From Branchiostoma floridae (lineage: Eukaryota; Chordata; Leptocardii; Amphioxiformes; Branchiostomatidae), in NCBI RefSeq assembly GCF_000003815.2, contig NC_049991.1, positions 642,011 through 706,010 of the forward strand: a stretch of DNA of 64,000 nucleotides, written 5' to 3'. Under the pieces are notes generated by a model that was not told the origin of the DNA, did no database searches, and was given only the letters and a program-made list of their open reading frames with translations. Of this stretch, positions 1 through 59,100 are shown one piece after another; within the stretch, counting starts at the first letter, position 1; the number at the start of each line of letters is the position of its first letter. The translations under genes and the position numbers were made by a program.

Positions 1-423
1 TCTTAAGCAATATTGTTAAGAACATCCTCACCTATCTTTCTTTGATTCATCATTGAGGGTTAATCAACAGTTGGCCACACCATACAGTTTATGACACAAA
101 TTCAAAATAAAGTTGAAGTTGACCTCTGTAGAATGTTGAAGGCTTGATATGGAATTTAGGAATCCAAGGTCTTTGTTTAGTTTGTTATGATATCATACCA
201 AAACTCACATCATCTTCTTTACATTGTTAAGGGCCAAAATCAAGTTTGCAGTATGAATATTCATATTTTAAGCAATAACATTTCAACACTTCAACATTGG
301 TCTGTGTAAAATGTAAGCCTAGGATGGAGTTATCATTCTAGGCTTTCACTTAAACCACCACAGAGTTTATAAAAAGAATGTAAATACAGTGTATTCAAGA
401 GGATTCTATTGCATGGTATTCAG

Positions 424-6400: not shown

Positions 6401-9400
6401 AAGGAAAGAGACCAGCAGTTCCAGTACAGGACTCTAGATGAGATTACCGCTAATCTCATTGAAGCTGGTGAGATTTTTAGCAGCACTGCCAGCAGTGGTG
6501 GAGAAGAGCCAGAGGAAAGCGAGCCAAAGCAAAAGCGACAAAAGACTTCTGAGACTGATAAACACCACAAGGTACAGTTACCTCCTATCTACCTGTGTTT
6601 TTACACATGCATTTTGTAATTGCAGTCTTTATTCTTGTGTCTGTAGTTGAATGCGCGTGTGTGACATATGAATTATTTTCAATAAATATTTTTCACATTA
6701 GGAAGGCGAGCTTTCGGACAACCCCAAGGGAAAGAAAAGAAAGATCTTCACGGCTGTTGCTGAGATGGAGGTAGATGACCCACTACCTCCAGCGTTTCAA
6801 CACATACGAGAGTCGGAGAGAAAAATACGTGAGGACTTTTACAAGACTGTAGCTAATCTCTCAGGAAAGGGGCTTTCCATTAGTGAAGCAAGCTCAGCTG
6901 TGATTGAAGTTGGTAACACAATGTTTGGACGAAGATGGAAAAGCCCTGGGGAATATGATGAGATCTTTGATGTAGATACTGTGCCAACGAACAAGAACAT
7001 CAGGGAAGCTCTGCAGCAGATCGAGGCCCAGAGTCTCTCTCTAGTGGTGGACAAGCTTGACGAGGAGAAGCAGAAGGGTCGGATGATTACTCACGCATCA
7101 GACAGTACCACAAAGAAAGGTGTAGGTCAGTTCATGGTGCAAGGGCTGCATGTTGGTCAGGAGACCCCATTTCCTCTGCCTATCCTACCAATCCATGGAG
7201 AGACAACTGAAGATATAGCAATGCAGGTGGATATGGGCTTTGAGATACTGGCATCAGTTCGAGGAGTCAGTGCAGAGGATGTGTATAAGCTTGTAGACAC
7301 ACACATGACAGACAGCACAGAACACAACAAGGGGTTTGCAAATCTTCTTGCAGAGATGTACGACATAGAGAAACCAGCAGGACAGCTATTTTGTGGTACA
7401 CACACTACACTTGGCTTCAGCAGTGCCATGAACAAGGTTATGAAGATAGTGGAGGCAGATATGAAGATGGAGCAGGTTCTGAAGGGTTTCATGGTGGATA
7501 TGGAAGTAGAAAGCAAGAATACCAGTCTGGCTGGGCAATCGCTAGACATGTGCCTGAAGCTGGTGGCTCCAGAATATTCACACAAGCCCTGGAACCGCTA
7601 CAAGCCATTTCTCCTCTTCTTGGAGCAAAGGAATGTATCTAATGTCTTGTTTGCGTACAAGGACAACCGGTTTGGATGCCTCTCAAGAGCAGCAGCCGTA
7701 TTGATCCACATCTATGACCATCTGGTAGAATTCCTAAGGCAGAACCCACACATTAATAACCGCCTGGCCTGCCTGGTGAGAGAAGTTTTGGAACTTCCCT
7801 ATCTGAAAGTGGTCCTTGTGGTCTTTGCCTGTCTCGGTGTGCACTTGGTGGAACCATTCTATGCCAGGACAATAGAGAAGGGTGCTACCCATACTCAGCT
7901 GAGTGAGTTCTACAAAGGATTGCACACAGGTCTGGGCAAGCCTATCAGTGATGACTTCACAAGGTTCATAAAGCCTGAGTACACTGCGGTGTCTGATGAC
8001 CTGTTTGCTGGTGTAAAGAAGAGTTACACGGAAGAGGTCCTGAGTTCTGTGTCCGACGTAGCTGAGGAGCACATGGAAGAAGTGAAGAAGTTGACTAACT
8101 TGATGCTGCCCCACATGCAGACTGTCCTAGCCAGGCAAAGGAGAGACTATGGGATTGATGAAGAGTCCTTCCCAATGGACTATCCAGTGAGCGACCAGGC
8201 AAGCAACATTGATGAAACCCCTGTTCACAACATCGGTATGGAGAGGCAGTGTGGCAAGGTAGACCACAGACTGAAAAAGCTTGGCACGCTGAATGCGGTG
8301 AGCAGATCAATCATCTTGCAGAAGAGCCAAGAGCTCAGACATGGGCAGGTTCCCTCCTTCAGGGGTTTCAAAGCAGCAGTTCAGGCTAAGAGGGAGGTCG
8401 AACTCAACTGGAGTAGACATACACAGGAGAAGTTTGAGATGGGGGCAGCGCAAAAGCAGGAGATGGCTCAAAGAAATGAGAGGAAGAGACTTGACATGCT
8501 AGACAAACTGAAAGCTAGCGGTGGCCCCTTCACTGACAGTTCGGAGGTTGAGCAATTCATTGCAAGCGAAAAACTGAATGACAAAGAGAAACAACAGAGA
8601 ATGAAGCTAGAAGTTCAGTTTGCCAGAGAGAGTACCACTCTTCTGCCAAAAGTCGACCCTATCTTCCGAATCCAGGTGACACTGCCGAGCGGGAAGAGGA
8701 GGACCAAAACAGCACAGGAGTTTGGGGAGGCACTGATGTCTTTCCTGGGAAAGAAAAGCGACAGAACAACCCTGGACTATGACAAATTCAAGGAAAGCCT
8801 TAACAAGATCGCATCTTTGTAATTTATCATTGTGACTCAAATTGTACTTTCGACTTTGCCAGTAATTTCGTTTTGAAAATTAAAATGTGAACAAACTTTT
8901 CACACTGCAAGCTGTCGTTTATTGTTACTAGTACACGGCAAGTATAGCTAGGGCGCACAAATGACAGAGTGCCAAAAAAATACAATTCTAAATGGCAAGA
9001 AAGTACTTTACAATATGTATCTGCATAATTAAAAAAATACCTTACTAGCAATATTGATGGTAAATTGGAAGAAATAGCCATTTTTAATCACACCTTTCCA
9101 TAACTTAAACTACATATAAACCATAATTTTCAGGTTTCCGATTATAGTGAAATTTGGACTAATAATAGGTCAAAATTGTTACATGGGGCAGTTTGGAGAG
9201 GAAAAATTTCAACATTCCCGATATTGCAAAGAAATCAAACTTTACAGAGTATTTAAATCTATTGCATGTTAGAAGAAGACGTTAGAAGCAGATGCAAAAA
9301 TGGCAAATTAAAATGAAACGGGCCATATGAACTTTGCTTTATTTTACACATGTGCATATTATTGGTCTAACTGTTGATAATTTTGAATTGCAAGGGGTGG

Positions 9401-31000: not shown

Positions 31001-34000
31001 GATTGGGACTGATTTGGTTGATGATACAGTTTGATTTCTGTCACTTAGAAAACAAATAAAAGGGAATTGAAAAGACTTGTTTTGTTCATTTCTGGGAGTG
31101 AGTAAAACATGAATGAAAGAATGAATGTACATCCTTTATCATACTGGATAACTCATAATTAGCTGATCTTCCCAGAAGTCCAATGGTAGGGATTATTATG
31201 AGCAACATAGAATATGTGACAAGCCAAAGCCAGCCCATTTGCCAGGTGGACAGGATTCTGATGGCGTATCCACATGATTGACAGCTGTCCCCTTTGTCAA
31301 ACCTCCTGACTAGTGCCTGGTAGTGTGTGTTAGCTATGGGTGGTCAAACCTGCTGACTAGTGCCCGGTAGTGTGTGTTAGCTATGGGTGGTCAAACCTGC
31401 TGACTAGTGCCTGGTAGTGTGTGCTAGCTATGGGTGGTCAAATCTGCTGACTAGTGCCTGGTAGTGTGTGTTAGCTATGGGTGGTCAAATCTGCTGACTA
31501 GTGCCTGGTAGTGTGTGTTAGCTATGGGTGGTCAAACCTGCTGACTAGTGCCTGGTAGTGTGTGCTAGCTATGGGTGGTCAAACCTGCTGACTAGTGCCT
31601 GGTAGTGTGTGCTAGCTATGGGTGGTCAAATCTGCTGACTAGTGCCTGGTAGTGTGTGTTAGCTATGGGTGGTCAAACCTGCTGACTAGTGCCAGGTAGT
31701 GTGCTAGCTATGGGTGGTCAAACCTGCTGACTAGTGCCTGGTAGTGTGTGTTAGCTATGGGTGGTCAAACCTGCTGACTAGTGCCAGGTAGTGTGCTAGC
31801 TATGGGTGGTCAAACCTGCTGACTAGTGCCTGGTAGTGTGTGTTAGCTATGGGTGGTCAAATCTGCTGACTAGTGCCAGGTAGTGTGTGTTAGCTATGGG
31901 TGGTCAAACCTGCTGACTAGTGCCTGGTAGTGTATGTTAGCTATGGGTGGTCAAACCCTGCTGACCTAGTGCCCTGGTAGTGTGTGTTAGCTATGGGTGG
32001 TCAAACCTTCTGACCAGTGCCTGGTAGTGTGTGTTAGCTATGGGTGGTCAAACCTGCTGACTAGTGCCTGGTAGTGTGTGTTAGCTATGGGTGGTCAAAC
32101 CTGCTGACTAGTGCCAGGTAGTGTGTGTTAGCTATGGGTGGTCAAACCTGCTGACTAGAGCCTGGTAGTGTGTGTTAGATATGTGTGGTCAAACCTTCTG
32201 ACCAGTGCCTGGTAGTGTGTGTTAGCTATGGGTGGTCAAACCTGCTGACTAGTGCCTGGTAGTGTGTGTTAGCTATGGGTGGTCAAACCTGCTGACTAGT
32301 GCCAGGTAGTGTGCTAGCTATGGGTGGTCAAACCTGCCGACTAGTGCCTGGTAGTGTGTGTTAGCTATGGGTGGTCAAACCTGCTGACTAGTGCCTGGTA
32401 GTGTGTGCTAGCTATGGGTGGTCAAACCTGCTGACCAGTGCCTGGTAGTGTGTGTTAGCTATGGGTGGTCAAACCTGCTGACTAGTGCCTGGTAGTGTGT
32501 GTTAGCTATGGGTGGTCAAACCTGCTGACTAGTGCCTGGTAGTGTGTGTTAGCTATGGGTGGTCAAACCTTCTGACCAGTGCCTGGTAGTGTGTGTTAGC
32601 TATGGGTGGTCAAACCTGCCGACTAGTGCCTGGTAGTGTGTGTTAGCTACGGGTGGCCAGAGACGCCCATCCAATTATCTGAGCAGCCACATGTTAACTA
32701 ACAAATACTAACCTTGAAAAATGTGGTACCCTTGGCCTTGACTTTGTCTGAGGCCTCTAACTTTTCTTTAGTGTCCATTTGCCAAGACTCCTTCACCTAC
32801 ACAGGGGAAATATGCTACAATTAGATAAATCTTAAGTATGCTTAGGATAGCTAAATATTACTATAAATACAGGACTGGTAGTTGTTTACTTATTAACACT
32901 AGGCAGTAACTAAGGGAAGTCAGTGCCTAAATTCTGCTTGGAGAGTAGGTAATTGGCCACAGGTTACCATTGGCTACAGGTTGTGTAACACAGGCTACCA
33001 TTGTGCAAACAACAACTGATTGAACACCTTCAAGACACACTCCTTCAAGATGGGGGTGTCAATCTACAATTCTGCAGTACCTGAAGATGCTGCTATGGTG
33101 CCCAAAGTTGCCATGTTTAATCAGGACCTCACTAACTACCAACATGCAAAAATTCAAACAAGCCCATCAAAAGGCTCTTGATTTATAGATGGGAACACAC
33201 AAACACAAAGACTTAAAGGGGCATTCCACTCCACACGGGAGTGTTATTTTCCGATAGATATTAATTTTAGAAAGTGATAACTGCATACTACTTTACATTA
33301 TACGATAAAGTACCCAATTCCTCCACGTTCCTCAAAAGCATTCAGTCTTCTACTAAACTCCCCAAGTAACCTCTGATTGAATTAATCCTATGGCTGAATA
33401 CAATGCAAAACCTTCAGGTAAGATTACAAAACTAATTTCAGGATTGCTAAGAAATCTCGTCTTGTTATTTTTTTCTTTGCTATCTTATGAAAAATTTACC
33501 TTCTCGGTGTGCTTAGCGATCCTCAATTATTCTGAAAATATGCACGATAAACAAAGTGTCTGTGCCTATAGGGAATGCATGGGTTTAGTGAGTATCATAT
33601 TGTTTTACAAAACACANNNNNNNNNNNNNNNNNNNNNNNNNNNNNNNNNNNNNNNNNNNNNNNNNNNNNNNNNNNNNNNNNNNNNNNNNNNNNNNNNNNN
33701 NNNNNNNNNNNNNNNNNNNNNNNNNNNNNNNNNNNNNNNNNNNNNNNNNNNNNNNNNNNNNNNNNNNNNNNNNNNNNNNNNNNNNNNNNNNNNNNNNNNN
33801 NNNNNNNNNNNNNNNNNNNNNNNNNNNNNNNNNNNNNNNNNNNNNNNNNNNNNNNNNNNNNNNNNNNNNNNNNNNNNNNNNNNNNNNNNNNNNNNNNNNN
33901 NNNNNNNNNNNNNNNNNNNNNNNNNNNNNNNNNNNNNNNCAATCAGAGAATAGGCCTTTCTTGGGGCTTGTTGCTGTCGCAAGCTGTTTCGCAAAGGCCG

Positions 34001-38074: not shown

Positions 38075-38535
38075 CGTGTGTGCGTGTGTGTGTTGTATCT
38101 AACCTACCAAAAAACAGGAATGAATTACAATGTAAATTATATTATACAGACCTGAACGTGAACCTCTGGACTAAATCGTGGTAAATAATGGCTAACATGC
38201 TTTGAAAAAAACGGATGAAAATTCTGTGACCAAATAACGTTAATATCATAAAGCCATTCAGAAAAACCCTGACATCTAAAATGAACAACTTTTATACCTT
38301 TGCCGAGTGTAAACTCGAACTTGTCGTCCCTATCTCGGCTAGAGTCGAACTTGGTGCCATCAGTCAGTGTCCCCACATAATGCACGGACACTTTGTCTTC
38401 AGCCAGAGGCAGTTCGTCTCCCTCGCCGGCTCGGAGGATCTTCTTCAGCACCCCTCCATCCTTGTTCGGGGTAATATCCTCCCCATCAGGGGCCGTAACA
38501 GAAGCGTCTGTCTGGTCTACAGAACTCCCTGCCAT
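28029..38535 (-). CDS. FKBP4: Peptidyl-prolyl isomerase FKBP4 (FKBP52-like), ~457-461 aa
   Basis: Co-chaperone of HSP90 in the cytosol. Exons (minus): 38535-38298, 36609-36520 (or 36509), 35959-35795, 35370-35299, 34419-34241, 32796-32713, 30841-30650, 30524-30396, 29471-29358, 28139-28029. FKBP domain 1 (about residues 40-140) keeps pocket residues: [27 protein letters not shown]. Domain 2 has IVKGV in place of VIxxW, so it is probably not catalytic, as in vertebrate FKBP52. TPR helices follow ([41 protein letters not shown]), then the FKBP4/5-like [12 protein letters not shown] and an acidic Ser-rich tail. Length and ten-exon structure resemble vertebrate FKBP4. The start ATG follows a frame that only reaches a TTG upstream. 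The exon 2/3 junction has no clean in-frame GT donor (see findings). FKBP5 is an alternative; an invertebrate may have one gene pre-dating that split. Confidence 0.93.
28200..29086. mobile_element. Inverted-repeat element in the last FKBP4 intron
   Basis: The arm at 28200-28260 (ACCCTGTCCAGTCCAGACAG ... GGAAAGAGGGTCTG) recurs inverted at about 29027-29086, with several mismatches, across a 766-bp spacer. The motif CTGTCCAGT also repeats within each arm. No frame is seen inside. Probably a diverged non-autonomous DNA element; no target duplication was identified. Confidence 0.65.
31296..32658. repeat. 47-bp minisatellite in FKBP4 intron
   Basis: About 29 tandem copies of a 47-bp unit containing TAGCTATGGGTGGTCAAACC, TGCTGACTAGTGCC and TGGTAGTGTGTGT. 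Variants (TCTGACCAG, CCAGGTAGTGTGC with a 2-bp loss) alternate along the array. It lies between FKBP4 exons 32796-32713 and 30841-30650. Confidence 0.95.
33617..33939. other. Assembly gap (323 N)
   Basis: Gap in an FKBP4 intron; flanking exons 34419-34241 and 32796-32713 are intact and in phase, so no coding sequence is missing. The sequence after it (33940-34150) looks repeat-like but was not assigned. Confidence 0.99.
36208..36317. other. Assembly gap (110 N) between FKBP4 exons 2 and 3
   Basis: Lies inside the one FKBP4 intron whose splice junction does not resolve, so a micro-exon could be hidden here. The flanking ACCCCTGTACACC repeats explain the assembly failure. Confidence 0.99.
37668..37977. 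mobile_element. tRNA-Glu-headed SINE-like insertion between 61-bp direct repeats
   Basis: 37732-37788 has a tRNA-Glu(CTC)-like core: A box TGGTCTAGTGG, anticodon arm TGGCG-CTCTCAC-CGCCA with CTC at 37758-37760, B box GGTTCGATTCC at 37775-37785. The acceptor halves (TTACATA and CGTTTTT) cannot pair, so it is not a working tRNA. A body with a duplicated GCATAGTGATTCGTG motif follows, ending in GGCACCCCTG. The 188-bp insert (37729-37916) is bounded by exact 61-bp direct repeats at 37668-37728 and 37917-37977, far longer than normal LINE-type target duplications. Located in FKBP4 intron 1. Confidence 0.75.
38030..38092. repeat. GT/GC microsatellite
   Basis: An alternating purine-pyrimidine run, (TG)n then (CG)4 then (TG)n, in FKBP4 intron 1 about 200 bp from exon 1. 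Such sequence can adopt Z-DNA. Confidence 0.9.
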
Positions 38536-38648
38536 GACGCTACTCAAATGTGTACAATGTAACGTTAGCTGGTAGGTTTACAGAAAGGATTAGATGAAGG
38601 CTGGACTAGTGTAGTGCGGTTACTTCCTGGTCACACGTGCGTCTCCGG

Positions 38649-40996: not shown

Positions 40997-43900
40997 CTAT
41001 ATAGCTTGAACGATAAGCACAATGGCGGAAGCCAAGACGAGGATGAAATCCGATGTTGTCAGCCCCGCGTCACTGGTTCTCTCATCAATGATTGCAAAAA
41101 CTCGAGAGGGAGCTCCGCTTCCGTCGCCGATCTTTATGGGCATGGCGTATACAGTGGAGCCGGTAGGGGGCATCTCGTTCAGGTGACCCACGTTCTCTAT
41201 GATGATGATGTTGTTGGGTAGGAGGATCTTGTGAGTCGGACACGTCTAGTGAGGTGAGAAAGACAAAGAAAGAAAAAAGGCGAGGGTTAAAAAAGAACAA
41301 TACTTCTGAGACCGCATACCTCCGTGAAATTTTTGTGTAAATTTTTTGCTTCATCTTCTCTCATCAAGGTACAATTCCGCCGTTTTCACGGAGTTAGATA
41401 TAGGATAAGTGTAACAGTAACCTTAGAGTCTCCAGTATCCGCGGAGACAGTGTCAAATCCGATCACTTTCACATCACGGTTGTCAACAAGCCACTGGGCG
41501 GCATCTGGGTGCAGTCCCGGAGAGTGCAGAAGGGAGTCGTTCTTTTGGCCCACGCCCAGATACGGCACTGGTCCTTCCTCATAGAACTGCTCACCCCAAC
41601 CTGAACGGACTGCATATTGCACGGGATACAAGTGGTAAGCTTAAGGCTATGGAGATGACTATCGTACCTTGTATGTGTATTATGCTACCTGCTGATGTAC
41701 GCCTACTAGATATCATCAAATGATGACAGTTGCTAAAATACTTGAACATCGCTATCCTTCAAACACACACTACATCCGCAAGCGAAAACAGGTACTAGTA
41801 CCCATTTTTACCCCTGGGTATTCACCTCACCTCACCGATCTCATAGCCTGTAATGTTGGACGCCCGTTTGAGGCACTTGACATGGTCACGTAAAAAAAAG
41901 ATTAAAAAATTGCGGTGGGCTAAATCAGGCTGTCAAAGGTGTCCTTGTAATCCCCACGAGTTGTTCTATCTGCCTTGTGAATCTCAAGCGATGGACTTTT
42001 ACGAGAAAGTATATATTTGATGTCAAAGTTGACCGATTTTCGACAGCTTTTTCCTATGGTTTCGCCATTGTTTTCAAGCCGAAATACGCACCGTATGGGG
42101 GTTTCGGGGTGTCCGCTTAGTGGGCGAGGTTCAACTGTTTCCGGGTCACGCTATACCGTTGCGGCAGTCACTCGTGACCTCACTCGGTAGTGTACACATT
42201 CAAGTACTTTTGATGGTGCTGTCAGCGTTTTATCATGTTACGAAGTAATATTGAAATGTCTTTGAAGTATAAGACAGCACTATGATCTGTAAGGTGTTAT
42301 TCCAATAGGTTGCGTCGTGGGTAAAGTGAACTGTAGGTAACGTTACCCGACGAAGGCTTTTTGCATCTGACTGTTAACTGTTGAAGATATTAGATACATT
42401 GCTCGCGCCTGACTGAGGGATTAACTAAGATTAGAACAGTATATAGCTAATTAATAGCGAAAAACGTGTCAGAAGAGAAATGTGNNNNNNNNNNNNNNNN
42501 NNNNNNNNNNNNNNNNNNNNNNNNNNNNNNNNNNNNNNNNNNNNNNNNNNNNNNNNNNNNNNNNNNNNNNNNNNNNNNNNNNNNGTTCAGAAGACAAACT
42601 GTGTCAATTTGAATGACACACTTACAGGTAGCGCAATAAGAAATGTATATAGCAAACTAATAGCGGAAAAAGTGTTCAGGAGACAAACTGTGTCAATTTG
42701 AATGACACACTTGCAGATAGCGCAATAAGAACTGTATATAGCAAACTAATAGCGGAAAAAGTGTTCAGGAGACAAACTGTGTCAATTTGAATGACACACT
42801 TACAGGTAGCGCAATAAGAAATGTATATAGCTAACTCATAGCGAAGTGTAACGTGATCAGAAGACAAACTGTGTCAATTTGAATGACACACTTGCAGATA
42901 GCGCAATAAGAACTGTATATAGCAAACNNNNNNNNNNNNNNNNNNNNNNNNNNNNNNNNNNNNNNNNNNNNNNNNNNNNNNNNNNNNNNNNNNNNNNNNN
43001 NNNNNNNNNNNNNNNNNNNNNNNNNNNNNNNNNNNNNNNNNNNNNNNNNNNNNNNNNNNNNNNNNNNNNNNNNNNNNNNNNNNNATATTAAGTGTATATA
43101 GCTAACTCATAGCGAAAAACGTGTTCAGAAGACAAACTGTGTCATTTGAATGACACACTTACAGGTAGCGCAATAAGAAATGTATATAGCAAACTAATAG
43201 CGGAAAAAGTGTTCAGGAGACAAACTGTGTCATTGTGAATGACACACTTGCAGATAGCGCAATAAGAACTGTATATAGCAAACTAATTGCGGAAAAAGTG
43301 TTCAGAAGACAAACTGTGTCAATTTGAATGACACACTTACAGATAGCGCAATAAGAAATGTATATAGCTAACTCATAGCGAAGTGTAACGTGATCAGAAG
43401 ACAAACTGTGTCAATTTGAATGACACACTTGCAGATAGCGCAATAAGAACTGTATATAGCAAACTGATAGCGGAAAAAGTGTTCAGGAGACAAACTGTGT
43501 CAATTTGAATGACACACTTACAGGTAGCGCAATAAGAAATGTATATAGCTAACTCATAGCGAAGTGTAACGTGATCAGAAGACAAACTGTGTCAATTTGA
43601 ATGACACACTTGCAGATAGCGCAATAAGAACTGTATATAGCAAACTGATAGCGGAAAAAGTGTTCAGGAGACAAACTGTGTCAATTTGAATGACACACTT
43701 GCAGATAGCGCAATAAGAACTGTATATAGCAAACTGATAGCGGAAAAAGTGTTCAGGAGACAAACTGTGTCAATTTGAATGACACACTTGCAGATAGCGC
43801 AATAAGAACTGTATATAGCAAACTAATAGCGGAAAAAGTGTTCAGGAGACAAACTGTGTCAATTTGAATGACACACTTGCAGATAGTGCAATAAGAACTG

Positions 43901-46900
43901 TATATAGCAAACTAATAGCGGAAAAAGTGTTCAGAAGACAAACTGTGTCAATTTGAATGACACACTTGCAGATAGTGCAATAAGAACTGTATATAGCAAA
44001 CTAATAGCGGAAAAAGTGTTCAGAAGACAAACTGTGTCAATTTGAATGACACACTTGCAGATAGCGCAATAAGAAATGTACGTAGCAAACTCATAGCGAA
44101 GTGTTACGTGTTCAGAAGACAAACTGTGTCAATTTGAATGACACACTTACAGGTAGCGCAATAAGAAATGTATATAGCTAACTCATAGCGAAAAACGTGT
44201 TCAGAAGACAAACTGTGTCAATTTGAATGACACACTTACAGGTAGCGCAATAAGAAATGTATATAGCAAACTAATAGCGGAAAAAGTGTTCAGAAGACAA
44301 ACTGTGTCAATTTGAATGACACACTTGCAGATAGCGCAATAAGAACTGTATATAGCAAACTGATAGCGGAAAAAGTGTTCAGGAGACAAACTGTGTCAAT
44401 TTGAATGACACACTTACAGGTAGCGCAATAAGAAATGTATATAGCTAACTCATAGCGAAGTGTAACGTGATCAGAAGACAAACTGTGTCAATTTGAATGA
44501 CACACTTGCAGATAGCGCAATAAGAACTGTATATAGCAAACTGATAGCGGAAAAAGTGTTCAGGAGACAAACTGTGTCAATTTGAATGACACACTTGCAG
44601 ATAGCGCAATAAGAACTGTATATAGCAAACTGATAGCGGAAAAAGTGTTCAGGAGACAAACTGTGTCAATTTGAATGACACACTTGCAGATAGCGCAATA
44701 AGAACTGTATATAGCAAACTAATAGCGGAAAAAGTGTTCAGGAGACAAACTGTGTCAATTTGAATGACACACTTGCTGATAGTGCAATAAGAACTGTATA
44801 TAGCAAACTAATAGCGGAAAAAGTGTTCAGAAGACAAACTGTGTCAATTTGAATGACACACTTGCAGATAGCGCAATAAGAAATGTATGTAGCAAACTCA
44901 TAGCGAAGTATTACGTGTTCAGAAGACAAACTGTGTCAATTTGAATGACACACTTGCAGGTAGCGCAATAAGAAATGTATATAGCTAACTCATAGCGAAA
45001 AACGTGTTCAGAAGACAAACTGTGTCAATTTGAATGACACACTTGCAGGTAGCGCAATAAGAAATGTATATAGCAAACTAATAGCGGAAAAAGTGTTCAG
45101 GAGACAAACTGTGTCAATTTGAATGACACACTTGCAGATAGCGCAATAAGAACTGTATATAGCAAACTAATAGCGGAAAAAGTGTTCAGGAGACAAACTG
45201 TGTCAATTTGAATGACACACTTACAGATAGCGCAATAAGAAATGTATATAGCTAACTCATAGCGAAGTGTAACGTGATCAGAAGACAAACTGTGTCAATT
45301 TGAATGACACACTTGCAGATAGCGCAATAAGAACTGTATATAGCAAACTGATAGCGGAAAAAGTGTTCAGGAGACAAACTGTGTCAATTTGAATGACACA
45401 CTTACAGGTAGCGCAATAAGAACTGTATATAGCAAACTAATAGCGGTAAAAGTGTTCAGGAGACAAACTGTGTCAATTTGAATGACACACTTACAGGTAG
45501 CGGAATAAGAAATGTATATAGCAAACTAATAGCGGAAAAAGTGTTCAGGAGACAAACTGTGTCAATTTGAATGACACACTTGCTGATAGCGCAATAAGAA
45601 CAGTATATAGCAGACTAATAGCGGAAAAGGTGTTCAGGAGACAAACTGTGTCAATTTGAATGACACACTTGCAGATAGCGCAATAAGAACTGTATATAGC
45701 AAACTAATAGCGGAAAAAGTGTTCAGAAGACAAACTGTGTCAATTTGAATGACACACTTACAGGTAGCGCAATAAGAAATGTATATAGCTAACTCATAGC
45801 GAAGTGTAACGTGTTCAGAAGACAAACTGTGTCAATTTGAATGACACACTTGCAGATAGCGCAATAAGAACAGTATAAAGCAGACTAATAGCGGAAAAAG
45901 TGTTCAGGAGACAAACTGTGTCAATTTGAATGACACACTTACAGATAGCGCAATAAGAAATGTATATAGCTAACTCATAGCGAAGTGTAACGTGATCAGA
46001 AGACAAACTGTGTCAATTTGAATGACACACTTGCAGATAGCGCAATAAGAACTGTATATAGCAAACTAATAGCGGAAAAAGTGTTCAGAAGACAAACTGT
46101 GTCAATTTGAATGACACACTTACAGAATAGCGCCGTTAAAACAGTATATAACTAACTTAAAGCGAAAAGTGTATTCAGTAGACTACCTGTGTCAATTTGA
46201 ATGACAGATTTATAGAAAAGTGCTGTAAGAACTGTATATAGCGGAAAACGTGTTCATGGGACAAACTGTGTCAATTTGCATGACATACTCACATTATAGC
46301 GCCGTAAAAACAGTACATAGCTAACCAATTTAAAAAACGTGTTTAGGATACAAAATGTGTCTATGTGAATGACACATTCATAGAACAGCGAGGTAAATTT
46401 ATTTTGACGAAAGCTTGCTCTAACAAAACCTTTTTCAATCGGATGATCATACTATTTAATTATCGCTTTACTTTACTTGTGTGTCATATGAATTGACACA
46501 GTTGCCATCCTCACGAAGTTTTCTGTTGTAAAATGGTTATATGCAGTTCTTACAGCGCTTTTCTTTAGGTGTGTCATACAAATTGACACAGTTTTGTGTC
46601 CTGAACACATTAGCCGTTAAGATTTAGTCATACATTTGTATACTATACGTTCGGCGCTATTCTACAAATGTGTCGAAACAAATCGACACAGCTGTGCTTT
46701 TGACTACATTTTCAGCAATAAAGTTGTTAGGTACAGCCCAAAGTACACTTTTTACCAGTGTGTCATATAAATTGACACAAATTCTTTACTGTCTTTTTCC
46801 GTGATCAATTCTACACACGTTAAACAGCGCTTTTCTAATTGTGGGTGATATAGATTGACACAGTTGTCCCCCGGGAAAACGTTTTCCATTTTTAAGACAC

Positions 46901-49900
46901 GGTTCAAACATCGCTAACAAAGGTGTCAGACAAATTCACACAATTTCCCTCCTGAAAAAGTCGTCCGCCATCAAGACAACTTTACACTGATTTCACATCG
47001 TGTTTCATAGTGTGTCATATGAAATAACAGTTGTCCTCCTGACAAGTTTTTCTGTCATTTGATACAGTTGTCGTCCTGACCGTGAGGGTTTTCCGTTTTG
47101 TGAAATTTTAATAAGTTAAAAAAACTTGTTAATTGACACAGTTGTCGTCCCGACCAAGTCTTCCATCAGTTTAATACTGTTTAATCATCGCACTAGTGTG
47201 CCATACTATCAGTGACAGTTGTCCACCAAAGTTTCCGTCATGAGGCAGTTTTATACTGTTTAACACTCGGTTATTAATTGCAAAGCCGTCCTCCTGACAA
47301 AGTTTTCTGTTATAAACTATTGTGTCAATTAATGTGACAAATTAGCAGACTGAATAGATATGCCTAAATCGTATAATCATTCGATTGAAAAAGTTTTCGG
47401 CAGAGCGAGTTTTCCGTCATAAGATAGTTATTATGCGTTTCAAAAGTGTGTCATATGATTGACACAGTTTTCAGCTCAGACAGCGCAGTACTAGATTTGA
47501 CAGTTTACTTGAACAAGTTAGTATTTCAGTTACTTTAAACCCTACCATGGTCCAAACTCCAGTAATCAGTTGTTAATTGCTATGAAATAACCGCATCTAA
47601 AGTCATGTATATACGAAGGAACGCCATTTAGTTCGTAAGAAGGGGCCTTAGAACTTGTCTGACACACTTGCAGAAAAGCGCTGCCTGAACCACGCTATTA
47701 TATAAGTGTGTCATTCATATTGACACAGTTTGACTTCTGAACACGCATTAATATTCCGCTTTAAGTTAGCTATATACAGTTCTTACGGCGCTATTATGTA
47801 AGTGTGTCATTCAAATTGACACAGTTTGTCTCCTGAATACGTTTTCGGTATTAGTTTGTTATATACAGTTATTTGGGCGCTGTCTACAAGTGTGTCATTC
47901 AAATTGACACAGTTTGACATTTGAACACGCATTGCGCTTTAAGTTAGCTATATACAGTTCTTACAGCGCTGTTCTATGAATGCATCATTCAAATTGACAC
48001 AATTTGTCTCCTGAACACCCTTTTTCGCTATTAGTTAGCTATATAAAGTTCATTCAGCTTTGTTCTGTAAGTGTGTCATTCAAATTGGCACAGTTTGACA
48101 CCTGAATACGTTTTCCGCGATTTCTTAGCTATATACAGGTCTTACATTGCTGTTCTATAAATGTGTCATTCAAAGTGAAACATTTTGTCTCCTGAACACG
48201 TTTCTCGCTATTAGTGAGCTATACACAGTTCTTACGGCGCTATTATGTCAGTGTGTCATTCAAATTGACATAGTTTGTCTCCTGAACACGTTTACGCTCC
48301 TAGTTAGCTATATACAGTTCTTACGGCACTATCATGTAAGTGTGTCATTCAAATTGACACAGTTTGACTCCTGAACACGTTTTCCGCTATTAGTTAGCTA
48401 TATACAGTTCTTTTAGCTTTGTTCTATAAGTGTGTCATTCAAATTGACACAGTTTGACATTTGAACACGCATTCCGCTTTAAGTTAACTATATACAGTTC
48501 TTACAGCGCTATTCTATAATGCATTGTGTCATTCAAATTGACACAGTTTGTCTCCTGAATACGTTTTCGCTATTAGTTTGCTATATACAGTTCTTTGGGC
48601 GCTGTCTACAAGTGTGTCATTCAAATTAACACAGATTGACATTTGAACACGCATTCCGCTTCAAGTTAACTATATACAGTNNNNNNNNNNNNNNNNNNNN
48701 NNNNNNNNNNNNNNNNNNNNNNNNNNNNNNNNNNNNNNNNNNNNNNNNNNNNNNNNNNNNNNNNNNNNNNNNNNNNNNNNNNNNNNNNNNNNNNNNNNNN
48801 NNNNNNNNNNNNNNNNNNNNNNNNNNNNNNNNNNNNNNNNNNNNNNNNNNNNNNNNNNNNNNNNNNNNNNNNNNNNNNNNNNNNNNNNNNNNNNNNNNNN
48901 NNNNNNNNNNNNNNNNNNNNNNNNNNNNNNNNNNNNNNNNNNNNNNNNNNNNNNNNNNNNNNNNNNNNNNNNNNNNNNNNNNNNNNNNNNNNNNNNNNNN
49001 NNNNNNNNNNNTCCTGGACACGTTTCTCGCTATTTGTTAGCTACATACAGTTCTTACGGCGCTATTATGTAAGTGCGCCATTCAAATTGACATAGTTTGT
49101 CTCCTAAACACGTTTATCGCTATTAGTTAAGCTACATACAGTTCTTACGGCGCTATTATGTAATGTAACAGTGGTGTTCAAGGACTGCTTAACCGAAGAC
49201 GCCTAACGGCTTAAGCCTTTTGGCCGAACGGTTTGCACGTTCGATTTGTGATCCGGCTGCCCGGGTTCGGCGCGGGTTCGAATCCCGGGATTCGGGGTGT
49301 TGTTTCTTTCTGTTCTTACTCGCCCCTCTGGTTGTTTCAGTAAGTGTGTCATTCAAATTGACACAGTTTGTCTCCCCAAGGAGGTCTCCCGAACACGTTT
49401 TCCGCTATTAGTTCCCTGTATACACTTCTTACAGCACTGTTCTATAAATGTGTTATTCAAATTAACACAGTTTGTCTCCTGATGTCTACGAGAATGCCAG
49501 TAACTTAGTTCGTTCGGAAGGGACCTTACAACCGTTGCAGATTCGCAACGTGGGCCGAGACGATACGAACATACACAAACTTAAAAAACGTTCTGCAAGT
49601 TCAAACATACTTTCGCCAAGAGTCCCTTAACAAACCTAATTTAACAATATGCGTAAGCCTGACTTGAATCCTCCTCTACCGAACCTAGCGCAGATTGAGA
49701 CCGTCAAGATACCTGGTGGCCCGCGTTCCATGACCTCACTCGTACGACCCGGAAGTATATGATCGTAATCGGTTGCACGGAAACCCCCATGTAGTGCGAA
49801 ATCGAGGCCGAAAACAGGCATAAAGAGCCAGTTTGAAGGCTAACTTTGACTCTTCAAATCTCATCCCGAAATAATATTTGAATCAACACGAGTACTGTAG

Positions 49901-51667
49901 GCGATAGAACAACTCGTGGGGATTACGTGGGTACCTTTGACAGCCTGATTTGGGCCACCGCGATTTTTTAATCTTTTTTTTACGCGACCATGTCAAGTGC
50001 CTCAAACGGGCGTCCAACAGTAAGTGTAAAGTGCCCATCATAAGGATACAACGTCTCGCCAGGAACGGTAGGAATCAAACCCGCGACCTCTCGATCTCGC
50101 GTCCGCCAACTCGGCCATTCGACGTTTCTTACCCTACTCAATTCATCTCAAATACCTACTACAATACAATACTGTGCATCAAGTTTGAAATAAGAACATT
50201 GCACCTTGACTGTACTGATTGTAAAACATTGATGGGAGACTTACGCATGATAATGCCACCTTCTGGGATATGCCCATATTCTCGTTCCCAGTCCTGTAAG
50301 TCTTGCGCCGTGACGGCGTAGTCCGTGTTGTCTCCTATCCTATCCCTCACGTCAATCATCACTCCAGGGCCGGTCAGGTGGCCGAGCGGGATCTGGTCAA
50401 CTGGGGATGGAATCAGCGCACTTAGTTATAATTATATGTTCTACTTGAAAATTGTACGAAAGGCTATCTACAGCATTTGTCTAGTAGGGAATTGGACATA
50501 CTAGTAACTAGTGACTAGTACTAGTAACTAGTGACTAGTAAATTGTACAATTACAATAAGAGGAATATCCAAAAGACCATTATACTATTTTGGTTTTGTA
50601 TATACTTGTATAACGTTATGAATAACGCTAGTAACCAATATCCGTTGTGTTAAAAACGGTATTAATATATATTTTGAGTATCTTTTATGTGTTAAAAATA
50701 TTTGCAACCACGACAGTTTAGCTAAGAGTAAATCGTTTTGTATGACGACCGGAAAAAAAACATAGCCTGAGTACCATCCTCCGTAGTGACCGCTGGCTCA
50801 CTATTTTCGCTTGCTAACCACCGTACGGTCCGCCGAGTTTTTTTAAAGAACGGATATATGTTACCCCATGGATAAAGGTGAAGAAGCGTTAACTCACGTC
50901 TCCAAGCTCCTCTCGCGAAATGTGCGGGCGCGTCTATGTGAGTCCCGGTGTGCTCGTTCATGGCGATCTCGTTAGACTCCAAGTAGTAGCCTCCAGGATG
51001 GTCATCTCTGTATCAAACACACGGCGGTTTTATTCGTTTGGTTGGTGTCAAGGTCACCTCTGTATCAAACACACGGCGGTTTTAGTCGTTTGGTTGGTGT
51101 CAAGGTCACCTCTGTATCAAACACACGGCGGTTTTAGTCGTTTGGTTGGTGTCAAGGTCACCTCTGTATCAAACACACGGCGGTTTTAGTCATTTGGTTG
51201 GTGTCAAGGTCACCTCTGTATCAAACACACGGCGGTTTTAGTCGTTTGGTTGGTGTCAAGGTCACCTCTGTATCAAACACACGGCGGTTTTAGTCGTTTG
51301 GTTGGTGTCAAGGTCACCTCTGTATCAAACACACGGCGGTTTTAGTCGTTTGGTTGGTGTCAAGGTCACCTCTGTATCAAACACACGGCGGTTTTAGTCA
51401 TTTGGTTGGTGTCAAGGTTACCTTTTATCAAACAAACGGGGAAGGAGGCTAGGACAAACTACTATCTTTTGTGGTATCTTTTGTACCATAGAATTTCATC
51501 CATGGCACTTTTGTCACGCTGATGTATTGTGCTTACCTGTAAACAATAGTGAACTGGTAGGGAGGGAAGAATGGATGAACAGGAATGCCAGCCTTCAGGG
51601 TCCATGTCAGGTCGATCAGACGAGGCACAGATTGTCCCCAACAACCAAGAAGGAGTCCAGACGTTAT
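40997..51667 (-). CDS. Cyclase-family (kynurenine formamidase / isatin hydrolase-like) enzyme, 5' end missing
   Basis: Metal-dependent hydrolase of the cyclase/KynB fold. Exons (minus): 51667-51537, 51007-50898, 50400-50245, 41609-41422, 41245-40997; 834 nt, 277 aa plus stop, phases consistent. The metal-binding motif HxGTHxDxP is intact (NEHTGTHIDAPAHF). Other family landmarks: RLIDLTWTLKAGIPVHP, QIPLGHLTGPGVMIDVR, IPEGGIIMLRSGWGEQFYEE, SPGLHPDAAQWLV, VIGFDTVSADTG, NNIIIIENVGHLNEMPP. The first visible exon starts in phase 0 with a hydrophobic SGLLLGCWG, probably the end of a signal peptide; the ATG exon was not found. The C-terminus ends in a hydrophobic tail (FILVLASAIVLIVQAI) after SDAGLTTSD, suggesting a GPI or tail anchor. 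Substrate cannot be told from sequence. Intron 41610-50244 holds the fold-back element. Confidence 0.88.
41727..41805. repeat. 79-bp perfect inverted repeat, left copy
   Basis: Identical over 79 bp to the reverse complement of 52415-52493. It contains the 16-bp palindrome TGGGTACTAGTACCCA. It ends 48 bp before the fold-back element (41854), within the cyclase intron. Confidence 0.93.
42485..42584. other. Assembly gap (100 N) in satellite
   Basis: Gap of nominal size; the copy number of the left array is therefore uncertain. Confidence 0.99.
42928..43084. other. Assembly gap (157 N) in satellite
   Basis: Second gap in the left array, flanked on both sides by the ~90-bp units. Confidence 0.99.
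48681..49011. other. Assembly gap (331 N) in satellite
   Basis: Gap in the right array; units continue on both sides in the same orientation. Confidence 0.99.
49164..49339. mobile_element. 176-bp TG...CA insertion with tRNA-like segment
   Basis: Interrupts one satellite unit: CTATTATGTAA, then 176 bp, then GTAAGTGTGTCATT. GTAA (49160-49163 and 49340-49343) is duplicated, and the insert begins TGTAACA and ends TGTTTCA (weak inverted ends). Inside is a class II tRNA-like stretch with A box TGGCCGAACGG (49221-49231) and B box GGTTCGAATCC (49275-49285), resembling Ser/Leu tRNAs. The acceptor halves do not pair and the anticodon stem has a mismatch, so it is not a functional tRNA. It lacks the poly-A tail expected of a LINE-moved SINE. 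Confidence 0.65.
51006..51421. repeat. 52-bp tandem repeat duplicating a 3' splice site
   Basis: Eight copies (starts 51006, 51058, 51110, 51162, 51214, 51266, 51318, 51370) immediately upstream, in gene sense, of cyclase exon 51007-50898. On the minus strand each ends GTGTGTTTGATACAG followed by AGGTGACC; the true exon border reads GTGTTTGATACAG followed by AGATGACC. The repeat therefore copies the acceptor itself. The plus-strand open frame here is a by-product. Confidence 0.92.
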
Positions 51668-52414
51668 CTGTGTAAATGTGTGAATAATATTCGCGAATAT
51701 TTTTCATTAAGTTGGTATATGAGATTTTATTAAGCAGGGTTGCTTGACAGTATCTATGCAATACTTTTGAGACCGCATTCTACAACAGCGACTCCTAACT
51801 AGAACTGCGCGGTGCGGGGTAGAACCAGTCATTATTGTTCAGAGGAAGGCGACAGACGGTCACAGAAATTTAACGTCTTGGTTTGTGAATGAGGAACCTT
51901 GTCATTCTGTGGGAATGATAGTTTTGCGTAAAATATCTTATTGGGACTCTAAAACTGACAGGCGGAAAGGTTTTCACCAATATTTCAGTACCTGGGACGG
52001 ACGCCTTTGTTTTTATTATCTGTGCCTTTGCGGGTGAGCAAAAATAATGTGTCGGGGTTTGAGACTGCTTAAGAGCACCACCTGGCGTTATGTGGCGACA
52101 CTTGCAAGTGAAATGTATTGATTCATCAAAATACGTCCAAAACGCCTCCTCATGTCACAATATCGACACAGTGAAACAACGCCACAGCTCTATACCTAAC
52201 GTTACGTCATTTTAAGGTCATCGCTAAACGATACTATATACGGGTTGTCACATCTGGGTAAGGAGCGCTCCCGGTGCCAGCCATATGGGGAGGACAGGCC
52301 GGGGAGAGTAGGCCGGGGAGAGGGGGCCAGACTGTACCATTGTACCTGTAGGGAAAGAAAGTACAGCATTATTGCAATCACTTCTATGTCCTCTCAAACA
52401 CATTTCTGGCAAAC

Positions 52415-52493
52415 ATGGGTACTAGTACCTGTTTTCGCTTGCGGATGTAGTGTGTGTTTGAAGGATAGCGATGTTCAAGTATTTTAGCAACTG
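52415..52493. repeat. 79-bp perfect inverted repeat, right copy
   Basis: Exact reverse complement of 41727-41805, 10.6 kb away. It lies upstream (gene sense) of the first recognised cyclase exon, so the pair brackets the fold-back element and three cyclase exons. Confidence 0.93.
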
Positions 52494-53289
52494 CCATCTT
52501 GACATTATCTGTGAAGATCTTTGCTACAGTCCTGCATATTTTGCATAGTGATCCACGTAGAGACATTTGTGCCGAACCACCTGATATGGAACGCACGGCA
52601 GAGACGGCAAATTAATCATAAAGTGGTTTCCTATATTGTGAATACGCTGCTAGATGTTCGAAGTTCCAATACACGCCGACCCAGAAGAAGTTTATTCTAA
52701 CAGCGCGTAATGCGAAACAGCGCGAGAGTGTCTCTAAGCTTCAAATCGACGTTTGATTCTGTGCCCCCGGGCAACTTAACCCCAAGTATAGAAGAAGATA
52801 TCCAATTTTGCGGTCTTCTTTACCCCCTATATAGACAAGACGAAGTCGACTATCCATGGTGCTGCATTCTGTGTCCGAATGGACTCTACTGACTTCCATC
52901 GCCTGTACAGAGATTCCTGCTAAGACCTGGTGATACAGATCAAGAATAGGGCCAAACACACCATTTATAGTTAGCGGAGACAGGATCCACCATGGCTACA
53001 ACAGCTGCATTACGTTATCTAGAAACATGATAAACAGTGGCTGGGAGTACCAGGCAGATACCTACAAGTTACAAAATCTAACAGATTGCAAAATACGGAA
53101 TGAATGTTTAGCGTACTTGAATCTAAATACCAGTGATGGGAAATTCAAGACGTTATGTTGAACAAAGGGGTTCTTTATGGTACTCTGCACAGAAGCAGCG
53201 TTGACAAAGCGGTGACTAGCTGCTGTAAACAAGAACATTTTAGTTCATAATTCTACCGCAACTTCAAAGAAACAGGACCAGTTCCCATC

Positions 53290-56125: not shown

Positions 56126-59100
56126 TTAATGTTTGGGCAAGATTGTTACAAAGTAGTCAGTGGACACTACCAGCTGCCCCTCCCCACCTATAGCAACACG
56201 CACTGGTCTACTGATGTAGGCAACAGTGCAGACATGATCCCCCTCAGCTGTGAACATCTCCACTCGCTGGTTACCATTATCAGCCACAATCACACGGTCC
56301 CGACTATCCACACAGATTCCCAAGGGCGATAAAAGATACCCCGCTCCAGTGCCTCGACTGCCGAAACTGGAAAGGTAGACTCCATTCTTGTCATACTTCA
56401 AAACACGATCATTTTTCTTGTCTGCTATGAAGATGTTCCCTCTCTTGTCCTCTGTGACAGGCGGTGGCACCCATCCTCCTTCTATAGACCCAAACCTGCT
56501 CATGTTACACGTCGGCTTCCCACCCGTGTAACCAGGACGGAACCACACAGCCTCCATTTGCGAGCTTCCCGGACCAGAAAATCGCTGTATTGTCAGTATG
56601 ATCTTGTCGGAAAGATTGTTCACTGCAATCCCATGGATTCTAAATTGGCCATTGCAATTGTACTTGGCAAGGACGTGGCCATCTTTGCTGTACTGACCGA
56701 CAGCATTTTCATAAATGGGGTGATTTTCGCGGCCTCCTTGCAAAACAACCCACAGGGAGTTGTTGGTTCCTGTTGCTATACCACATGGATTCATGCCTCC
56801 TGTAGGGATATTGCGGATATTAGCACCCTTCATGCTGAGGACTTGGATTGTCTTTATGGAGTTGTGAGTCACAAATATCTCATTATCGGATGACACAGCC
56901 AGTCCCTCCGTAATGCCATAGCGCATCTTGCCAACTCGTATAGCGCCAGTTCCTTGCAGTCGGGAACTGACTCTTTCTTTCTTTTCTGTCGGCGAAACAA
57001 AGTAAAACGCTTAGTAAAGTGAGCACTTTTTACACTATAAAAGATACAAAAACAATAAACTATTAGGTAAATCCCATCCAAAGGTTGCCATTTTGACTGT
57101 TCAGGCCATTATTTATCGTTGACTTGATTGTATGGATGACATCCTCTAACATCCATTATCATAATACCGGCACTAATCATAATACCGCCAAATAAATCAG
57201 CGATGGATTTAAGATCTACTAGTGCAACAACAGTAAGTTCAGAGCTATGCATACTTCAGACATCCACGGGTTCAACACATTCTTAAAAAGGCTTCGATAA
57301 GGATGCATTCGAAGACAACAATGCCAAAAGTTTTCAGTTCTTTTTCGGGGCAGGCGAGCTCGTCGTGGGACGAATACACTGTCACGTTCATCGCCAGATG
57401 TGTAGATAATAATCACATGTGCTCACGGCACAAGACGGGCATGATTCAACAGCAATCTTTTATTTCTGTTGGTGACCTAAAACTCGTGTAAAAGTGTGAA
57501 GAACCGTTGCTAAATGGGCAAAACTGAACGTACGCCGCCATTTTCCTGCCATTTTTATATCTACGCTAGCAGTAAAGTTTTACGTCATGGCGGTTGTGAC
57601 GGACCAAAATTAAATGAAAATTCCTGACAGTATACGTATGTTTTTTCATGACTTTTTGTATGCTCATGCATGTTTATGTTTTATGCAATTACTAACCGAA
57701 AAGGAAGGAACAACAGAGGAAGTATAAAGGTACATAGCGACAGTTGATTGTACCGAGTTTCTCAGAGTCCTGGCGGTATTGTGGAACGTCCTCCCAACCA
57801 CGCGCCCGTTCTCTGTGCGATTCCGCGGTGTGTTACAATTACGATATTACGCTTTTAGCAGGAAAAGAGAAACAAAAAAAGATACACAGAAGAATTGGCA
57901 AAGGTAAACTGTAACATCAACATGTAACTGGAGAAAATGATGCGTTGACAATTTGTCAAATCCAGTATGGCTAGGGAAATCGTCGGAAACGTGGCGGTAT
58001 TATGATAATAGATGTTAGCTCTGGAAACTCCAAAACTGAAGTTTTCAGGAATGTATAAAAATTGTAGATTCTTCATTTTTGTCGTTTCACACCTTTTTTG
58101 ACTTTGGTATCCTAGACAGAAGTATTCATTTTCAATATGTTTTCAATTCGCATATTCTCAATTTTCAGATGCTTTAAATTTTGTATGATTTACAGTATTG
58201 TTGGGAACTTTGTTTTTCGGAAATGGACAAAACTTGAGGCGCATGTGGATGTCATCCATAGAATTGTATCGACATGGCTCTATCAACTGCAAATGAGGAA
58301 AACCTCTGAAATAAACCATTTACCACTACAAAAGACAGTTGGTGTGTAGTCATGTTAAAAGTTAAAGCCCATGTGAAACTCACACAAAACCAATCTCCAA
58401 GCAGAGGTTAGGCTCCGGCTGTTTTTGACGTTTTTTTTTAGGTATTCTTATCAGGCTTTCTATTTTGTACCGTTTTCTCGCGGCCGCGAGGCACCAACAA
58501 AAGGGTACAAAATAGAAAACCCGATATGAACGCCTAAAGACAACGGATAACTAAAACAACAGCCGGAGCCTAACCTCTGCTTGGAGATTGGTTATCTGTG
58601 ACAGGGGTTTATCAAGGTTGGGAAGCCATGGTTTGCTATGTTTGACAGGAGCTCTAGACTTATAAAACTGTATTTATGCCTGTACGTGATCCTGCTATTA
58701 GAAGAGAAATTTTTAGATATTTGTGCCCACCTTCACAATGGTACATTACCTCCAAGTACTTCTTAGTTTTCGGACAGGGGTCACCAAAGTTAGAGGTTGT
58801 TACTTCCACGTTGCACTGCTGCAAACCCTGACATATCTTCCTTGCACTGACTTCGGCACTGTTTAGCAATTGTCTGTTACAAGATACAAGGTGGTACAAA
58901 ATTACTTACAGTGCGTATGTCACCAATGACACTTAAAATGCAACAGTTTCTGATTACAAGCAACCCTTACTTCTTTTTATAGTGCTTCTACGTACCGTGC
59001 CTCCTTTTGTCCACACTTAGTGTTACATCGGCTGAACCAGCCACATTTACATCCGCTGACGCTCTCTTTGGTCCTCCGCCCGTAGAAGACGTCGTCAATC

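Follow-up and report, generated by a model that had tools for sequence, protein, structure and literature searches.

How a satellite came to fill a single intron of a gene, and what placed it there, were questions raised by a stretch of 64,000 nucleotides from Branchiostoma floridae (assembly GCF_000003815.2, contig NC_049991.1, positions 642,011 to 706,010; hereafter the window). Positions 41854-50019 of the window (8,166 bp) are occupied by a non-coding transposon. Three exon-like pieces on the minus strand (50722-51012, 50159-50425 and 41386-41640) match consecutive parts of the Pfam domain Cyclase (PF04199); as these flank the element, it sits in an intron of the Cyclase gene, as a preliminary description of the sequence had stated. 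Copies elsewhere in the genome exclude a chance origin of the window structure, and the element belongs to a real family of transposons that have an unusual interior and follow a precise target rule. Site choice by transposons is an open question, and the strongest feature of this family, missed in the preliminary description, is a motif resembling that of the host protein YY1 at a fixed distance in the flank.

A transposon family with opposed satellite arrays

The ends of the window copy (41851-41970 and 49903-50022) form inverted repeats of 120 nt with 93% complementarity, both reading TGTTGGACGCCCGTTTGAGG and giving TG...CA termini, and GTAA lies directly outside on either side, in agreement with the preliminary description. 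Repeats of ~89-90 bp form arrays at 42585-42927, 43093-46242 and 47693-48680. The window copy contains 40 left-type dyads (see Table 1 for the dyad motif) followed by 19 right-type dyads, with a single orientation change between 46376 and the reverse repeats that begin at ~46479 (46.38-46.48 kb), close to the 46.4 kb originally given. As the element holds 588 N (Table 1), the assembled array lengths are uncertain. The term giant palindrome, also applied to this structure, is only partly apt: the arms are unequal in length and ~80% alike (78-93% complementarity for the 25 longest inverted pairs shown), and nothing in the right subterminal stretch matched the left one (~41976-42430) in inverted orientation at E 1e-5.

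The first 26 bases of the element, with up to two mismatches, matched 65 places in the 513-Mb assembly as compared to none for a reversed control. Pairing of these ends by coordinates, with one further end from a 16-base search (see below), gave 28 loci with both ends and seven with one end (i.e. ~35 loci) on many contigs, the paired ends being separated by 3,897 bp to 17,224 bp. Three of the ends are held by contig C341 (13,794 bp), which has one end precisely at its start, another at 10001 and a further one at ~8372 beside N, and is probably a collapsed or mis-assembled copy. Exact duplications were present at 21 of the 28 two-flank loci (19 of 4 bp and two of 5 bp) and absent from L011, L015, L017, L019, L024, C158 and C16_190. 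Their sequences include GTAA, CGCG, CTCA, TTGC, CCAC and TTTA, and the duplication columns are nearly flat. A duplication of 4 bp is the rule, while GTAA, which the preliminary description had expected at other copies, is not fixed. Joining the flanks of the C139 copy gave a sequence that aligned along its entire length to five other places, with 88-91% identity. These empty sites are paralogs and not alleles; each is uninterrupted and has a single copy of the 4-bp target, indicating that this insertion was precise. The common boundaries of the 28 loci, together with the duplications and the empty sites of this one copy, bear out the earlier proposal that the whole structure moved as one transposon.

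Copies of the main subfamily are 96-99.7% identical over the first 590 bp where aligned that far (L013 and L019 in part) and 94.7-99.4% identical over the last 537 bp (L025 has no right-end match of at least 100 bp). The centre of ~1.3 kb is complete at 96-99% identity in at least 10 other copies, partial in L011, L014, L015, L018 and L019 and absent from L010, with N at this place in L010, L011, L014 and L018. A 401-bp part of the centre (47300-47700) had at least 29 genome matches, the window and C341 included, of at least 94% identity over at least 366 bases among the 40 of 53 candidates that were scored. With L017, L024, C16_190 and C12big excluded, 171 pairs from 19 copies differed by a median of 1.3% in the first 480 bp, and 153 pairs from 18 copies (L025 dropped) by a median of 1.8% in the last 400 bp. 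These medians are below the 3.2-4.2% heterozygosity of sequenced lancelets (PMC12500494), so that the copies are apparently young. Diverged copies are L017, L024, C16_190 and L063.

The fold-back architecture put forward in the preliminary description recurred in all of the 20 main-subfamily copies counted: every left-type dyad (5-49 per copy) preceded every right-type dyad (14-33 per copy), with one flip. Neither the four diverged copies nor 19 dyads compatible equally well with either orientation entered this count; in three of the diverged copies (L017, L024 and L063), the runs of units likewise changed from plus to minus. A pattern for the satellite core, allowing up to two mismatches, matched 798 places in the genome (control, 0), and the 100 of these that were listed were all located, by eye from their coordinates, inside a pair of ends or, where a single end had been found, no more than a few kb from it. 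That the satellite travels only as part of the transposon is one portion of a joint reading with positioning by YY1, for which the odds are about even. The family shows a route by which satellite DNA can spread into gene introns as a single unit.

A target motif at a fixed distance from one end

Counted outward from one end of the element, a consensus GCCGCCATNTTGG begins at base 12, covers ~13 bases and contains the entire published YY1 motif CGCCATNTT (PMC7481187). CCAT was found at bases 16-19 outward in 25/35 loci, and in 22 of the 28 with two flanks; at any other offset from 0 to 59, CCAT was present in at most one locus. Among all 4-mers at offsets up to 80, CCAT at bases 16-19 ranked first (25), and the next in rank were overlapping words. 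CCAT was never in place on both sides, and the opposite flank shows no consensus. The motif-bearing end was right-type in 12 copies as compared to left-type in five (17 copies), from which no conclusion was drawn.

The binomial probability of 22/28 was ~1e-40 for a background of 0.0043 per position, which derives from the window only, and is uncorrected for the choice of word and offset, both of which were picked after the discovery flanks had been seen. ATGGCGG was first noticed beside several ends among the fetched flanks. CCAT was in place at 8/13 loci of this discovery set (seven of the 13 having one known flank) and at 17/22 of the loci examined later, or 16/21 when the window copy is excluded, its flanks having been seen earlier. 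At the C139 site, the occupied copy has CCAT as compared to CCGT (four) or CTGT (one) in the empty paralogs; this is a single case, in which the paralogs also differ elsewhere and two are without one base just before the motif.

Genome searches were performed with the motif and the end combined. The pattern ATGGC-N14-TGTTGGACG occurred at 21 places, comprising 18 known copies and three others (control, 7). The more general pattern ANATGGCGG-N12-TGTNR-N8-V occurred at 163 places as compared to 78 for a reversed control, an excess that is real. Among the matches listed were dispersed repeats carrying the motif themselves, with identical bases separating it from TGT, and no repeated end with differing targets, as would mark another family with the same targeting; the final V of the pattern excludes the present family and similar ends, making this a partial test. 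A YY1 gene is present in the genome as two exon pieces (C1:4608481-4609153) that are 96% and 100% identical to the human YY1 zinc fingers.

Proposed mode of insertion and its alternatives

We propose, with a probability of roughly 0.55, that the elements form a young non-autonomous family moved in trans by an integrase-type transposase, which is positioned by a motif-bound protein, most likely YY1. The type of enzyme is suggested by the type of ends and of duplications, positioning by a motif-bound protein by the fixed and one-sided spacing, and YY1 by the presence of both the motif and a conserved YY1 gene. The transposase, made elsewhere, would pair both ends and join them 4-5 bp apart into target DNA, and its complex would be held by the motif-bound protein (i.e. 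host YY1 or a YY1-like factor) such that insertion occurs ~12 bp beside the site. Phasing of insertions to a YY1-like motif, as seen in the aligned flanks, is consistent with YY1-guided integration. It is about evenly balanced whether this is a DNA transposon placed to the base by host YY1, inserting 12 bp beside its site and carrying opposed dyad-satellite arrays as its only cargo. If so, YY1-guided integration would become open to testing with purified proteins; YY1 is a regulator common to lancelets and humans. Neither the family nor a YY1-phased DNA transposon was described in the literature surveyed (titles and abstract openings, in several searches those of the top 8-15 papers, with Repbase and most subscription papers outside the survey).

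The arrays may, more tentatively and by analogy with Galileo (PMC4079207), be multiplied binding sites. The dyad TGTGTCA-N7-TGACACA would be a putative protein-binding site whose copy number rose through slippage or unequal exchange. Multiplied dyads would make it easier for the transposase to capture the element, in the manner suggested for Galileo and Tetris, and the arrays would lengthen and shorten in the periods between moves. Two half-sites, TTGACA and TGTCAA, are present in the 120-bp end as compared to 0.24 expected, and resemble the dyad halves of the satellite unit. Conservation of the dyad was modestly above that of the rest of the unit (0.97 versus 0.87 and 0.95 versus 0.85), with some anchoring bias in these values. 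Single-stranded dyads folded better than shuffled sequences (z -2.6 and -2.3), while a 91-base end piece did not (z -0.9). Compensatory changes gave no evidence, with four compensating and three non-compensating double changes in a flawed count in which palindromic dyads were scored on both strands.

To our knowledge, phasing to a host factor's motif at single-base resolution is known mainly from Tf1/Sap1. Insertions of Tf1 fall at -9 and +19 from the motif of the host DNA-binding protein Sap1 (PMC5741268); Tf1 is, however, a long terminal repeat retrotransposon of fission yeast that uses another factor and two positions, whereas the present element has one spacing on one side. A link between YY1 and a lancelet transposon is provided by ProtoRAG, as lancelet YY1 binds GCCATCTTG, the same motif, in the ProtoRAG ends and also binds the RAG-like transposase (PMC7481187). 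In ProtoRAG, however, the motif lies inside the ends, and in the present family it lies in the target beside the insertion. The CACTATG terminal element, the internal GCCATCTTG and the 5-bp duplication of ProtoRAG (PMC7481187) are not features of this element, which ends in TGTTGGAC and has mostly 4-bp duplications; GCCATCTTG was not found by eye in its 120-bp end, and the left subterminal part contains CGCCATTGT, which resembles it partially.

The interior resembles fold-back elements (FB, Galileo and Tetris), having arms of tandem repeats that flip once, but the ends are not inverted copies beyond ~120 bp. Tetris is likewise non-autonomous, with internal tandem repeats in opposed arms and a variable repeat number, and the Galileo repeats carry extra transposase sites (PMC4079207). 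The Tetris repeats also occur as free satellites (PMC4079207), in contrast to the 100 listed core matches reported above. An origin from a Mutator- or P-type fold-back element would account for opposed tandem arrays between unique ends and for the lack of visible coding capacity; it is very improbable given the short inverted portion of the ends and the duplications of 4-5 bp, as compared to 8-10 bp for Tetris (PMC4079207). Still further from credible, and already refuted, is a plain satellite grown in place in the intron, or an assembly artefact. The N gaps in the arrays and the other minisatellites of the window would be in keeping with it, but the same ends recur at ~35 loci on many contigs, with duplications, a common centre and, for one copy, empty sites.

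The preliminary description had attributed mobility to an integrase-type, Ginger-like enzyme. The first part of this attribution is compatible with the TG...CA ends and the 4-5-bp duplications; the second is not supported, the Ginger targets being absent from the exact duplications and no transposase having been seen in the copies read, some of which have N gaps. Ginger1 has TGTNR 5' ends, inverted repeats of 40-270 bp, duplications specific for CCGG or CCGT/ACGG and a Gypsy-integrase-like transposase (PMC2836005). The TGTTG ends and ~120-bp inverted repeats of the element fall within this description and the duplication length fits, but CCGG, CCGT and ACGG occur in none of the 21 exact duplications. 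Among the 24 copies read from end to end, no Gypsy-integrase-like frame came to light; N gaps in some of them could conceal one, and an autonomous copy may exist elsewhere. Ginger2/TDD has TGTNR ends, 4- or 5-bp duplications and a preference for RTATAY (PMC2836005). The element shares such ends and both duplication lengths, but RTATAY targets are absent and TATA is not among its duplications (0/21). From both groups it differs also by the opposed satellite arrays and the external motif at a fixed distance. A non-autonomous derivative of Ginger1 or Ginger2 whose interior grew in fold-back style is thus an unlikely source, although both groups are reported from Branchiostoma floridae (PMC2836005); the comparison was made with the published description of Ginger. 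IS481EU, reported from parabasalids, has duplications of ~4, 15 or 25 bp (PMC10045372). On sequence grounds, the element is built like a fold-back element with ends and duplications that fit one moved by an integrase, and identity with Ginger is not supported.

The most serious competitor, which we consider possible but the less probable reading, is that the transposase recognises sequence of the GCCGCCAT type through a DNA-binding domain of its own and joins the ends at a set distance from it, with the resemblance to the YY1 site arising by coincidence or convergence. A single protein complex would be expected to give a fixed spacing, contact with YY1 is putative, and the target choice of ProtoRAG is unaltered by lancelet YY1 (PMC7481187). 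The ~13-base consensus, however, includes the whole YY1 motif, and YY1 is said, second hand in a review, to bind the integrases of human immunodeficiency virus 1 and murine leukaemia virus (PMC12958612), which are retroviruses for which the cited passage gives no fixed single-base spacing.

The ProtoRAG result counts against positioning of an integrase-type enzyme by YY1, as do several observations on the present family. The transposase may itself recognise the motif, and duplication length and TG...CA ends alone do not prove an integrase-type enzyme. CCAT was missing from the exact place in 10/35 loci, four of them with one known flank (C7, C13_1648, C5_426 and C12_203). In L011 a strong motif lies at offset 30, without a duplication; in C16_190 a strong motif is five bases closer; CCAT is displaced by one base in L023 and replaced by CCAC in L017; and L016 and L019 have no motif at the place, L016 with an exact duplication. 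In the window copy, the bases at the exact place are GCCCATC, which match the family consensus only weakly. Half-sites were not enriched to the same degree in the subterminal stretches (two versus 1.0 expected on the left, none versus 0.86 on the right). No transposase frame was found in the 24 copies read whole, the longest stop-to-stop frame listed outside nested insertions having 178 residues; length was the criterion by which frames were judged, six of them, nested or other, were scanned for domains, and N gaps of up to 4,067 bases (L019) could hide sequence. The integrase core PF24764 had 13 genome matches, and at the four loci read no end-like match was better than E 0.04.

The genome search thus yielded many copies and five empty paralogous sites, but no autonomous relative. 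A search with the first 16 bases, allowing at most one mismatch, gave 69 places as compared to nine for a reversed control, the additional places being the second end of a 14-kb copy and four unpaired places. As an autonomous partner, the 17-kb copy was rejected because its length stems from another element, with DDE_Tnp_4 and YqaJ/PHD frames, that is nested within its left subterminal part. Also rejected were the 14-kb copy, which carries a nested endonuclease/reverse-transcriptase element, L064, which holds a gag-like frame, and L063, another diverged and repeat-made copy. The nested element of the 17-kb copy on C12 (L029, ~355-7852), with DDE_Tnp_4/HTH_Tnp_4 and YqaJ/PHD frames, is presumably ISL2EU-like. 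An open frame of 549 residues with the integrase core domain rva_4, one of five strong genome matches, lies at 2778-4424 of L058 (C18:10581800-10589600); no matching ends were seen for it, and it may represent either a gene of the host or an integrase-type transposon that is unrelated.

Features of the element and its surroundings

The features of the window copy are given in Table 1.

Table 1. Features of the transposon and its target in the window (positions within the 64,000 nucleotides)
Feature	Coordinates	Strand	Remarks
Left target duplication GTAA	41850-41853	.	directly outside left end
Left terminal inverted repeat, ~120 bp, begins TGTTGGACGCCC	41854-41973	+	93% complementary to right end; half-sites TTGACA and TGTCAA at element positions 25 and 78
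Left subterminal stretch	41974-42438	+	single copy within element
Left satellite array, ~89-bp unit, dyad TGTGTCA-N7-TGACACA	42439-46376	+	units face centre; N at 42485-42584 and 42928-43084 (assembly gaps or masked letters, indistinguishable)
Central ~1.3 kb	46377-47703	-	decayed 90-bp repeats, mostly reversed; no stop-to-stop frame of at least 80 residues listed inside
Right satellite array	47704-49482	-	opposite orientation; N gap 48681-49011
Right subterminal stretch	49483-49899	-	
Right terminal inverted repeat, ending ...GGGCGTCCAACA	49900-50019	-	
Right target duplication GTAA	50020-50023	.	directly outside right end
CCAT core of YY1-like target motif	50035-50038	+	within GTGCCCATCATA at 50031-50042; bases 16-19 outward from right end

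No empty site was found for the window copy. Its right flank (50020-50123) is a dispersed repeat that begins at about the insertion point and has 71-93% identity to at least 36 other places; by eye, this repeat resembles a short interspersed element derived from a transfer RNA. Just left of the element, a 91-bp stretch (41722-41812) recurs in inverted orientation ~10 kb away at 52408-52498 with 97% identity. Three unrelated minisatellites are present in the window at 4050-5369, 31296-32656 and 51000-51439, with units of 43, 47 and 52 bp in ~31, 29 and 8.5 copies, respectively. Minus-strand frames at 56126-57010 (NHL repeats) and 38137-38577 (FKBP domain) are ordinary neighbouring genes.

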